Shown piece after piece: positions 15,317-18,529 of a DNA stretch of 64,000 bases (positions are counted from its first letter, which is position 1; each line of letters begins with the position of its first letter). Source of the DNA: Rhodoluna sp. (GTDB lineage: Bacteria > Actinomycetota > Actinomycetes > Actinomycetales > Microbacteriaceae); the NCBI GenBank assembly GCA_024641985.1, contig JAHEBZ010000001.1:202056-266055 (forward strand), in the 5' to 3' direction. The translations under genes were made by a program, and so were the position numbers. Under the pieces are notes generated by a model. It saw only the letters and a program-made list of their open reading frames with translations. It was not told where the DNA came from and did not search any database.

Positions 15317-15964
15317 CTAAACGGTTGTGCTCTGGCCAGGTTGCAAAAATTCAAAGCTGCCGCCGGCGGCCTCTGTTACGGCTTGAATTCGACCATTATT
15401 CATGGTGTGGCCAAGTTCACTCAGGTGCACATTGTGCGTGGCCATCGATCGTTTTGGCTTAACCGCCGCAACAAAATCCATCACTTCGCTAATTTTTAGC
15501 CAAGGTGCCGAAGAAGGGCAAGCCAATAGCTCAACCTCGCGGTCGGGTTGGGTGAAACTGTCGCCAGGGTAATACAGTTTCGAATTGATCATCACGCCAC
15601 AGTTTTGAATCAGTGGAATCGAACGGTGAATTTCGGCGTGCATATCGCCAAAGAACTCGAGGGTAAAGGCCCCAACCTCATAAAAATCGCCATGGTGAAC
15701 CGCCGTTGTGGCCAGGCCTGGTCTAGATTTTGCAAGTCGCTCTCGAACCTCGTCGGTGCCAAAAATCTTAACGTTCGGGTTTAGGGCAACAATGCGATCG
15801 AGCTGCTCTTCAAAGCAGTGATCATCGTGCATGTGGGTGAGCACAACGGCCGCAACATCGGCTTGGCCCTCGATTGGCCGGGTATAAACCCCCGGATCGA
15901 CAATCAGTTTGTCGCCATCTTGCTCTAGAACTAAGCAGGCGTGCTCGTATTTTGTGATCTGCAT
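15317..15964 (-). CDS. metallo-beta-lactamase-fold hydrolase (UlaG-like)
   Basis: 215 residues. The metal-binding motif HMHDDH (H44, H46, D48, H49) is intact, preceded by DPG and followed by distal histidine contexts GDMHAEIH and a late MATHNVH. The spacing fits the UlaG/beta-lactamase_2-like group of soluble MBL hydrolases rather than lactamases proper. The substrate is unknown. It converges on tRNA-Gln and is divergent from the P-type ATPase gene. No leaderless hexamer or clear ribosome site was found, so the start ATG 15964 rests on family length. Confidence 0.85.
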   Translation of the reverse strand: MQITKYEHACLVLEQDGDKLIVDPGVYTRPIEGQADVAAVVLTHMHDDHCFEEQLDRIVALNPNVKIFGTDEVRERLAKSRPGLATTAVHHGDFYEVGAFTLEFFGDMHAEIHRSIPLIQNCGVMINSKLYYPGDSFTQPDREVELLACPSSAPWLKISEVMDFVAAVKPKRSMATHNVHLSELGHTMNNGRIQAVTEAAGGSFEFLQPGQSTTV

Positions 15965-16006: not shown

Positions 16007-16012
16007 TAAGAT
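16007..16012 (+). promoter_or_regulatory. -10 hexamer of the P-type ATPase-like gene (leaderless)
   Basis: TAAGAT, 6 bases before GTG 16019; it favours that start over the in-frame TTG at 16013. Confidence 0.55.
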
Positions 16013-16018
16013 TTGAGG

Positions 16019-17635
16019 GTGCTAGACGACATCGAAGAGCTATTCACCGGGGCAATTGAGCTGCCCGATGAAGGCGCTAGCCAGAGCCATAAGGGCAGGC
16101 GCGCGGCCGAGATTCAAACCGAACTGGCAAATTCGCACTTTCTGACCAGAGTGCAAAACATTTGGTATCTGCGCACAGCAGGAATTCTGATTTTTGTAGG
16201 TTTTGGCATTGTTCAAAACCTCTCGGGCGCTATCAACAATTCAACTCGCGACATGACCGGTTTTTGGTGGCAATTGGGCATCATGGCGGTCGTTCTTGGT
16301 GCTAGCGCCTGGTTTGAACCCAGGCTTTTGGCGGCGGTGCAGCTGCCATTTTCGGGGCGCAAACTTGAAGAGCATGTAGCCGAGGCCCTGGCGAATGCCG
16401 AAAATCAAAAGTCTGCGATTCAAACTCGAGCCGAGCGAGCCGCCGGGCCGATTTATTTCATTGCGGTGGCAATCGCCTTGGCTGTCACTGGCATCAGCCT
16501 GCTCGTGGGTGCTGCATCGATCACCGAAAACGTGATGCGCTTCAGCGCGGTTTTGCTTGTGATTAGCCCGGCGGCATTTTCGCTAGCTGTGGGCTTGATT
16601 AGCGAAACTGCACTTGGCCGCTTGGCCGGCGCCGGAACCTTGGTTAAAAACCGGGCAGCGTTTGAGGCTCTGGCCAACATCGATGTTGTTGTTTTTGACA
16701 AAACCGGCACACTAACCACCGACGAGCGCACATTTGTGTCGGCACTTTTAGCCCATGGCTCAAACCTCGAGTCGACCGAAGATCTGATCACTATCGCGGC
16801 TGCGCTAGAGACGCCATCGCAGCACTCACTTGGCAAGGCAATCGTTGCAGAGGCAGGCAGACGAGGTCTCAATTTGCCCACAGTGGTTGATTTTAGAACC
16901 ATACCTGGGCAGGGCGTTACCGGTCTGCTCGACAACACCACCGTAATTCTGGGTGGCCCGATCTTGCTTACCTCTCGCAACATCGAGATCGATGTAACCG
17001 ATCTGGTGCGAGCCGACGCAGCAAATCAAAATGGCAACACCGTTTTGTTTTTGGTGCGCGAAGGTGTGCTGTTGGGCACCATCGAAATTGCCGATGTGCT
17101 TCGACCTACCGCCAAGAAGGCCATATTTGGCTTGCAGCTGTTGCGCAAGCGCGTGGCTCTGCTAACTGCCGATGCAACCGGTGTTGCGGCCAAGTTGGCC
17201 CGCGAGCTAGAAATAGCTGAGGTAATTGCCGAGGTATTGCCGCATCAAAAGGCATCCGCGATCGAATCGCTGCAAGCCGACTCTTCAAGGGTGGCAATGG
17301 TTGGCAATGCTCGAGAAGATGCTTTGGCCTTAGCGGCAGCAGACGTTTCGATCGCCATCGACGCAACCCTAGAAGACCTAGAGACAGAGAACGACATCTT
17401 GGTTAACGGGCAAGACCCGGTTGCGGTTGCCAACCTTGTAAAACTGGCGACCAGGGCAAAAAAGATGACCACTCAAAACGTTGTGGTTGCCTTTGCGGCA
17501 AACATCGGAGGAGTTATGTTGGCTTCGGGGCTGCTTGCACCGATCGGAATCAGTTTGAACCCGGCTACAGCCGTTGCGATTTCTTGCCTGTCATCGATGT
17601 TTGTGATCAATAACGCCAGATTGCTGCGTCGCTAA
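16019..17635 (+). CDS. eroded P-type (HAD-IC) ATPase-like membrane protein
   Basis: 538 residues, well below the 640-800 usual for heavy-metal P1B ATPases. The phosphorylation motif DKTGTLT is intact (D227). The others are altered: after the membrane segments about 50-70 and 85-105 there is no room for an actuator domain and no TGE; the membrane CPC becomes SPA (183-185); the N-domain HP becomes HS (269-270); TGDN becomes TADA; the hinge GDGxND becomes GNARED (429-434). At least six hydrophobic segments remain. It could phosphorylate but not complete a normal transport cycle, so it may be a pseudo-transporter or regulator. The DGK-family gene follows after 3 bases. Confidence 0.8.
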   Translation: MLDDIEELFTGAIELPDEGASQSHKGRRAAEIQTELANSHFLTRVQNIWYLRTAGILIFVGFGIVQNLSGAINNSTRDMTGFWWQLGIMAVVLGASAWFEPRLLAAVQLPFSGRKLEEHVAEALANAENQKSAIQTRAERAAGPIYFIAVAIALAVTGISLLVGAASITENVMRFSAVLLVISPAAFSLAVGLISETALGRLAGAGTLVKNRAAFEALANIDVVVFDKTGTLTTDERTFVSALLAHGSNLESTEDLITIAAALETPSQHSLGKAIVAEAGRRGLNLPTVVDFRTIPGQGVTGLLDNTTVILGGPILLTSRNIEIDVTDLVRADAANQNGNTVLFLVREGVLLGTIEIADVLRPTAKKAIFGLQLLRKRVALLTADATGVAAKLARELEIAEVIAEVLPHQKASAIESLQADSSRVAMVGNAREDALALAAADVSIAIDATLEDLETENDILVNGQDPVAVANLVKLATRAKKMTTQNVVVAFAANIGGVMLASGLLAPIGISLNPATAVAISCLSSMFVINNARLLRR

Positions 17636-17638
17636 GTT

Positions 17639-18529
17639 ATGCGACTCGGAATAATAGTTAACCCCACCGCCGGCGGTGGCGCGGCGAAAGAGGCTGGCCG
17701 CCAGGCAATCGAAGTGTTTGAGAGTGCCGACCTGACGCCAATCGACCTCTCAGGCAACAGTTTGGCAGCGGCTAGGTTGAACGCCGAGGTTGCCATATCG
17801 GCTAATCAAATCGATGGGCTCGTTGTTGTTGGTGGCGACGGCATCATGCACCTTGGCGTGAACCTTTGTGCCGGCACCGACCTGCCGCTGGGCCTGATTG
17901 CTGCTGGCACCGGAAACGATGCGGCGCGAACACTTGAAATGCCGGTTGGTGATGCCGTGGCTGCAGCCAACCTAATTGTCAGCACGTTGGCCTCGCCACG
18001 CAGGGTAGACGCTGTGAAAGCCCGCACAACCGCCGGGTCATTCTGGTTCATCGGCAGCATTTCGGCCGGTTTCGATGCTTTGGTGGCCAGGCGCGCCTAC
18101 CGCATGAAGTGGCCCAAAGGCCCGGCCAAATACACCATCGCCATGCTGCTCGAATTGGCCTCATTTAAGTCGATTCATTTCGATGCCGTAATTGATGGAA
18201 CTCTTCGAAGTTTTGATGCCATGCTGTGCGCGGCTTGCAACACCAAGGGGTTTGGCGGAGGTTTGCTGGTTGCTCCAGATGCTCAGGTAGACGATGGTTT
18301 GCTAGATCTTTTCATCGTGCACAAAATTAGCCGGCTCGAGCTGATCAAGGTCTATCCGAAGGCCTACACGGGTGCACACATTGGTCACCCGGCGGTCGAA
18401 ATTGTGCGGGCTAGCAAAGTGCAGCTAACCTCGGGGGCGATGCCCGCGTTTGCCGATGGTGAATCTGTCGGAAGTTCGCCAATCGAGGCCGAGGTTGTTG
18501 CCGGCGCATTGCGCATGTTTTGCAAATAA
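17639..18529 (+). CDS. diacylglycerol kinase-family lipid kinase
   Basis: 296 residues of the YegS/DgkB type. Seen: NPTAGGG (residues 8-14), nucleotide-binding VVVGGDGIMHLGVN (GGDG near residue 63), and AAGTGNDAARTL. The C-terminal beta-sandwich contains DDGLLDLFIV and FADGES, also typical. Substrates in the family are diacylglycerol, sphingoid lipids or related prenyl lipids. It lies 3 bases after the P-type ATPase-like gene, so they are co-transcribed. Actinobacteria use such kinases to recycle diacylglycerol, but the exact lipid here is inference. Confidence 0.9.
   Translation: MRLGIIVNPTAGGGAAKEAGRQAIEVFESADLTPIDLSGNSLAAARLNAEVAISANQIDGLVVVGGDGIMHLGVNLCAGTDLPLGLIAAGTGNDAARTLEMPVGDAVAAANLIVSTLASPRRVDAVKARTTAGSFWFIGSISAGFDALVARRAYRMKWPKGPAKYTIAMLLELASFKSIHFDAVIDGTLRSFDAMLCAACNTKGFGGGLLVAPDAQVDDGLLDLFIVHKISRLELIKVYPKAYTGAHIGHPAVEIVRASKVQLTSGAMPAFADGESVGSSPIEAEVVAGALRMFCK

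Follow-up and report, generated by a model that had tools for sequence, protein, structure and literature searches.

The gene at positions 16019 to 17635 of the window, the 64,000-nucleotide stretch of Rhodoluna DNA analyzed here, is very likely a CopB-type copper pump that has turned into a pseudo-pump, and selection very likely acts on it here as in its relatives. The protein that is left probably has another, non-transport job. Judging from the sequence comparisons, the best explanation, which we consider rather probable, is that the pump has become a nucleotide-binding pseudo-ATPase with what may be a regulatory or scaffold role. Rhodoluna are tiny lake bacteria; the source genome comprises 1,380,622 bases in six contigs and is 91% complete. 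The features of the locus are given below in coordinates of the window.

15317..15964, minus strand: divergent metallo-beta-lactamase-fold gene, a conserved neighbor (profile match, synteny)
16007..16012, plus strand: TAAGAT, candidate -10 element for leaderless transcription, six bases ahead of the GTG
16019..17635, plus strand: derived CopB-type P1B-ATPase that lacks the actuator domain (538 aa; start codon GTG)
16166..16339, plus strand: membrane helices M1 and M2 (residues 50-107; AlphaFold model, in which a single helix is drawn over 25-73 and M1 is taken as 50-73)
16340..16414, plus strand: short M2-M3 link in place of the actuator domain (residues 108-132; AlphaFold model)
16415..16630, plus strand: membrane helices M3 and M4 (residues 133-204; AlphaFold model)
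16565..16573, plus strand: SPA, replacing the ancestral metal motif CPH (residues 183-185)
16697..16711, plus strand: DKTGT phosphorylation motif (residues 227-231)
16823..16828, plus strand: H269-S270 of the nucleotide-binding domain
16958..17026, plus strand: N-domain segment found in Rhodoluna copies of both states, canonical and derived, and different in other genera (residues 314-336)
17303..17320, plus strand: GNARED in place of GDGxND (residues 429-434)
17639..18529, plus strand: YegS/DAGK-type lipid kinase, three bases 3' of the ATPase stop (profile matches)

The frame of the window gene is open from 16013/16019 through 17635 (538 codons). Just the terminal part of the Pfam domain E1-E2_ATPase (PF00122) is present (profile positions 96-179 of 181), and this remnant scored 26.9 and 28.6 bits in two profile searches with a cut-off of 28.1. 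The NCBIfam profile ATPase-IB_hvy gave 260.8 bits, under the curated cut-off of 346.25 by which a functional pump is recognized. Among solved sequences, copper ATPases were the best matches of the protein, with CopB at the top. A fold search with its AlphaFold model (mean pLDDT 77.8, pTM 0.71, 11 rows) also returned copper ATPases best, with 3skx and 7r0g among the top matches. The model, whose membrane part is less certain than its P and N domains, contains M1, M2, M3, M4, P, N, M5, and M6; about 25 residues join M2 (80-107) to M3 (133-163), and residues 109-116 have a pLDDT <50. The actuator domain with the TGE motif of functional P1B pumps is absent from the window copy, which also lacks two further features of its canonical relatives, the first two helices (MA and MB) and a His-rich N-terminus. 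The missing actuator had already been proposed from the sequence alone, and the E1-E2_ATPase remnant, the alignment, and the structure prediction all bear this out. Descent from the CopB lineage is supported by syntenic orthology and by the sequence and fold similarity of the P and N domains. A contig scan with the single window sequence as query found 11 distant relatives, none of them from Rhodoluna.

An actuator encoded in trans was considered and rejected, since PF00122 matches in two places only in the source genome (91% complete), namely the remnant and one other ATPase. An assembly artefact was rejected as well; the architecture is common to five sister species, and derived copies also occur on single-contig genomes. 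Besides the window gene, a single P-type ATPase was found in the source genome (L215, contig 3 of G000); it is intact and has 626 residues with TPC and TGEP.

The motifs of the window copy are partly those of a pump. DKTGT is intact, as the sequence-only reading had stated, and the Asp that is phosphorylated in P1B pumps is retained. The same reading was right that the GDGxND hinge has become GNARED; in addition, TGD reads TAD. At the intramembrane metal site (CPC/CPH), SPA was correctly recognized, but the ancestral motif is CPH, not CPC. The claim that HP in the nucleotide-binding domain was lost to HS does not hold. Canonical Rhodoluna copies (n=20) carry HS in 12 cases, HV in 6, HA in 1, and HP in 1; HS is thus the commonest state in the canonical relatives and not a loss. 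Because the window copy has no actuator and no metal ligands, its pump cycle is disabled. The "good promoter" ascribed to the gene was recovered in part only: a sigma-70 scan found none on the plus strand and did not pick up TAAGAT, which would nevertheless suit a leaderless start. Letters similar to TAAGAT, as judged by eye, stand upstream in several relatives.

A match at 1e-10 was present in 58 of 67 Rhodoluna genomes, paralogues counted. At the ATPase locus, 20 of the 67 genomes are canonical, 30 are derived, and 4 are deleted; the 13 unscored genomes have no kinase or have contigs ending at the locus. The order of metallo-beta-lactamase, ATPase, and kinase genes is preserved, with at least one of both neighbors beside each of the 50 scored copies. 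These include two canonical copies cut at contig ends (G004, G059) and a derived one cut at its N-terminus (G063). A cut ATPase copy at the end of contig C37 of G020 (L216) was left out; it resembles group d1, and the other contigs place the genome elsewhere, so that the bin is perhaps mixed. In four genomes (L122, L123, L124, L126), the ATPase is cleanly deleted, and the metallo-beta-lactamase and kinase genes are adjacent. Since no trace is left at the locus in these four genomes, the gene is dispensable in some Rhodoluna.

The derived copies are reduced in different ways. The actuator is lost and DKTGT kept in the window copy and in G002, G005, G007, G046, and G079. In G040 and G017, the actuator is kept and TGE and CPH are gone; G009 is alike, with Glu for Asp. 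Asn replaces Asp, with the actuator present, in G044, G080, G008, G051, G074, G013, G063, and G072, and Asn is combined with a partly lost actuator in G012, G068, and G073. The actuator is gone and Thr is found in G011, G021, G070, and G081. G006, G010, and G053, which read NKAGT, and G019, which reads GKAGV, have lost the actuator along with most of M1-M4. Group c (the R. lacicola type) measures 326-358 aa; R. lacicola itself (G006; one contig, 1,430,433 bases) carries a 328-residue derived form with NKAGT. Derived forms of 382 residues are found in G022 and G060.

In other genera, 21 of the 22 scored copies are canonical among the matches listed, in which short forms may be under-represented. 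From about 30 genomes with ATPase and kinase matches side by side, 20 were picked by eye, several of which share a genus. All 20 are canonical in TGE, CPH, DKTGT, and GDGxND, and G137 is likewise. G116, a genome of another genus that was known to be odd and lies outside the chosen 20, has a copy from which the actuator is gone and in which DLTGT replaces DKTGT, with CPH kept; this locus (L147 5061-7013) is apparently a recent, independent case of actuator deletion outside Rhodoluna. G090 and a second G116 copy (L146), which look like upstream reading-frame breaks, were left unscored.

The residues kept by the 30 derived copies are unevenly distributed. The metal Cys and the metal His are each retained in one copy and the Asp in 8; the other 22 have N, E, T, G, A, or P at this position. 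The ATP-site His is retained in 26 copies, the two Gly of GxG in 26 and 29 (the second in 29), Gly495 in all 30, and the Asp of TGD in 27, and the ATP-contacting Glu is kept in 5 and lost in 25. The ATP-site and metal-site roles of these residues are presumably those known from work on CopA and ATP7B.

Constraint is inverted in the derived copies: the nucleotide-binding and P domains hold, and the membrane helices drift. Positions conserved in 18 canonical copies (15 in the N domain, 41 in M3-M4) are kept in 11 derived sets at fractions of 0.67-0.93 for the N domain versus 0.04-0.51 for M3-M4. Within-group identity, compared without the singletons G063 and G072 and without G017 and G019, is higher for the N domain than for M3-M4 in 9/9 derived comparisons (one with only 10 M3-M4 columns) and higher than for M5-M6 in 8/9, group f having a slightly higher value for M5-M6. 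In all three canonical sets, by contrast, N-domain identity is below that of both M3-M4 and M5-M6. The actuator is present in 11/30 derived copies. In the five derived sets that have it, its conserved positions are kept at 0.50-0.80, about equal to the N domain at 0.71-0.80; thus, not every lineage discards the actuator.

The N-domain segment at 16958-17026 has the pattern LLTxRNIxIxVxDLV, which is typical of canonical and derived Rhodoluna copies; copies of other genera differ. Over 23 columns, compared in 19/30 derived and 18/20 canonical Rhodoluna copies, identity is 0.41 between canonical and derived Rhodoluna versus 0.19 between canonical Rhodoluna and 21 canonical copies of other genera. 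Identity within canonical Rhodoluna is no better than within other genera (0.45 vs 0.42), which argues for a genus-specific change and not for stronger constraint. These values give a hint that the N-domain change may predate the losses.

Selection was measured by pairwise codon models. Purifying selection acts on the derived products wherever a derived group offers close pairs: w = 1 was rejected in 21/21 derived pairs tested (2dL 94-519), and w was 0.047-0.165 in the ten derived pairs with dS <3. Three canonical pairs with finite dS gave w = 0.021-0.049, the other four canonical pairs being saturated; measured against these three usable pairs, the w of derived copies is about 2-3 times as high. 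No pair involving the window species escapes saturation of dS, and its 2dL values against w = 1 (94 and 173) also take in the sister branch. A three-taxon test of the window branch gave a w of 0.10 and a 2dL of ~20 with saturated dS. The same test on canonical G052 gave a 2dL of 2.7, and since w = 1 was not rejected even for this canonical copy, the test of the window branch is weak.

No stop lies inside the 30 aligned derived frames, whereas neutral simulation predicts 9 to 16 at some 0.5-1 substitutions per site. Apparent internal stops in the search matches of G006 and G019 were rejected; the stop in G006 is the gene's own, as the kinase start indicates, and that in G019 was taken alike. 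When neutral drift of the window frame was simulated, 3.3% of runs left it open at 0.1 substitutions per site, compared with 0/1000 at 1.0. Stops, frameshifts, and a dN/dS near 1, the marks of a pseudogene, were not found, with the window branch saturated. The sequence-only reading had argued against random decay, and the open frames of all 30 derived orthologues and the rejection of w = 1 throughout agree with it. Against a retained role it had set full-length ATPases at this locus in close relatives, which do exist as the canonical copies, together with relaxed selection, which in the derived groups is only mild and on the window branch was tested under saturation. A retained non-transport role remains the best reading of these open and constrained derived orthologues. 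As a group, they have lost catalytic parts and kept the fold under selection, and the derived ATPase is a predicted pseudoenzyme; the window copy keeps its Asp, and its own branch test is weak.

From the trees, the derived state is read as having arisen five to eight times in Rhodoluna. The tree built from seven flanking proteins (59 of 60 input rows retained; 49/50 copies, G004 being dropped for too few columns) requires 8 canonical/derived changes, also when branches of support <95 are collapsed most favorably, with 6 changes for the actuator and 9 for the Asp. The ATPase P/N tree requires 5, 4, and 7 changes, respectively. The two trees conflict in places, placing G052 with G043 and G045 among G022 and G060; therefore, recombination may have moved ATPase copies. 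The canonical ATPases of G052 and G043 (L052, L053) are sisters in the gene tree and their genomes lie apart in the flanking tree, a possible transfer of an intact pump. Canonical G045 (L068) is nested within the derived pair G060 and G022 (L095, L096) in the flanking-protein tree.

A retained role has to be weighed against slow decay, in which clean lake water made copper export unnecessary, the gene is being lost, and residual selection only prevents toxicity of the membrane protein or keeps the kinase translated. Slow decay would fit the clean deletions in 4/67 Rhodoluna genomes and the higher w of the derived copies. It would also fit the distribution of second copper pumps, for which candidates were picked by eye from matches at 1e-10: they occur in 9/30 derived genomes versus 1/20 canonical ones (Fisher two-sided p 0.037, uncorrected for kinship and incomplete genomes). 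The nine extra pumps, eight CPC CopA and one additional CopB in G006, would explain why export was dispensable. Moreover, 20 further genomes chosen from other genera have the kinase and no canonical-ATPase match in the stretch upstream of it (1.3 kb only in L197). However, w values of 0.05-0.17, frames free of the stops that neutral drift predicts, N and P domains held more than the helices, and two genomes that keep the gene without the kinase make slow decay unlikely. Alternatively, the pseudo-pump might anchor or regulate the kinase encoded three bases 3' of it. The proposed link to the lipid kinase stood in part. The kinase starts -2 to +16 bases from the ATPase stop in 28/28 derived copies that have it, a tight spacing that slow decay would also accommodate, and the two genes lie side by side in the 20 chosen other-genus genomes. 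However, G040 (L059) and G017 (L062; 1,338,021 bases), both complete single-contig genomes, have no kinase match at 1e-40 at the locus or genome-wide, and their derived copy is constrained (w 0.11). Because these two genomes keep the derived protein without the kinase, the latter is not a required partner. The kinase also persists after deletion of the ATPase in four Rhodoluna genomes, and we regard a kinase regulator as quite unlikely.

The intact DKTGT of the window copy could alternatively belong to a stuck phospho-switch: DKTGT copies would autophosphorylate from ATP, would not be dephosphorylated without an actuator, and would signal by their phosphorylated state. In the window's group, DKTGT is kept by each of the 6 copies without actuator, and 5/6 keep GDxxND (exact GDGxND in 3 of those). 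However, the window copy has GNARED for GDGxND and TAD for TGD, and the Asp is gone in 22/30 derived copies; a phospho-switch would therefore be at best the role of one or two groups, and we find it very unlikely. Since the Asp is replaced so widely, the derived copies cannot have phospho-signalling as their common role, and the earlier emphasis on DKTGT as the key motif is not supported. A leaky channel, in which the six helices left in the window copy form a nucleotide-gated ion path, would recall CFTR, which arose from a pump-type ancestor. Such a channel is highly improbable, as most of M1-M4 is missing from group c, and in 9/9 derived comparisons the N domain is better conserved than M3-M4.

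The conversion of a CopB pump into a nucleotide-binding pseudo-ATPase would have proceeded as follows. Copper export was presumably lost, and a membrane-anchored, nucleotide-binding subunit with a regulatory or scaffold function would have been left. Its N domain may bind ATP or another nucleotide and transmit this state to a partner with no phosphorylation cycle; the downstream kinase is a candidate partner, not a necessary one. The shared N-domain segment suggests, more weakly, that the second role may have arisen in the canonical Rhodoluna pump, so that the loss of copper export would have left this role behind. A tentative extension, conceivable though on balance doubtful, is that the N domain acquired a nucleotide-dependent regulatory job in the canonical pump and that lineages then dropped pumping and phosphorylation. 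The result would be a new class of pseudo-P-type-ATPase regulators, of which several stages have been caught within one genus.

The window protein resembles a CopB-type P1B copper ATPase in its locus, the fold of its P and N domains, DKTGT, and M1-M6; it differs in having no actuator, MA-MB, His-rich N-terminus, or CPH, and in its altered GDGxND. It is well known that dead enzymes can take on new functions. The soluble P-type ATPase-like HAD proteins of archaea likewise have P and N domains without a pump, whereas the Rhodoluna protein is membrane-anchored and derived from a pump that is still present in sister species. The pineal night-specific ATPase is reportedly a short form of ATP7B without the first half, and thus also a copper ATPase without its first half; that form comes from an intact mammalian gene as an alternative product, whereas the Rhodoluna gene itself is reduced, and repeatedly so. 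In apicomplexan guanylyl cyclase alpha, a P4-ATPase-like module fused to the cyclase supports another activity, and the title of that study describes the module's own activity as essential (PMC7858053). By contrast, the Asp is lost in 22/30 derived Rhodoluna copies, and no fusion was seen. In the literature outside subscription papers and preprints, no paper was found on pseudoenzyme P-type ATPases or on P-type ATPases without an A domain. A search for Rhodoluna together with P-type ATPases yielded nothing related, papers on wider topics describe no such proteins in their titles or the openings of their abstracts, and the accessible part of a review (PMC10654040) does not mention them.

In sum, this study suggests that a copper pump of Rhodoluna has been turned, probably with a non-transport role retained, into a pseudo-pump. 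R. lacicola has been described as naturally transformable, with gene replacement (PMC11577799). As this species carries a derived copy, the function of the pseudo-pump is testable by deletion. Intact pumps, several degrees of reduction, and deletions all occur at this locus within a single genus, so that the order of loss can be read directly.
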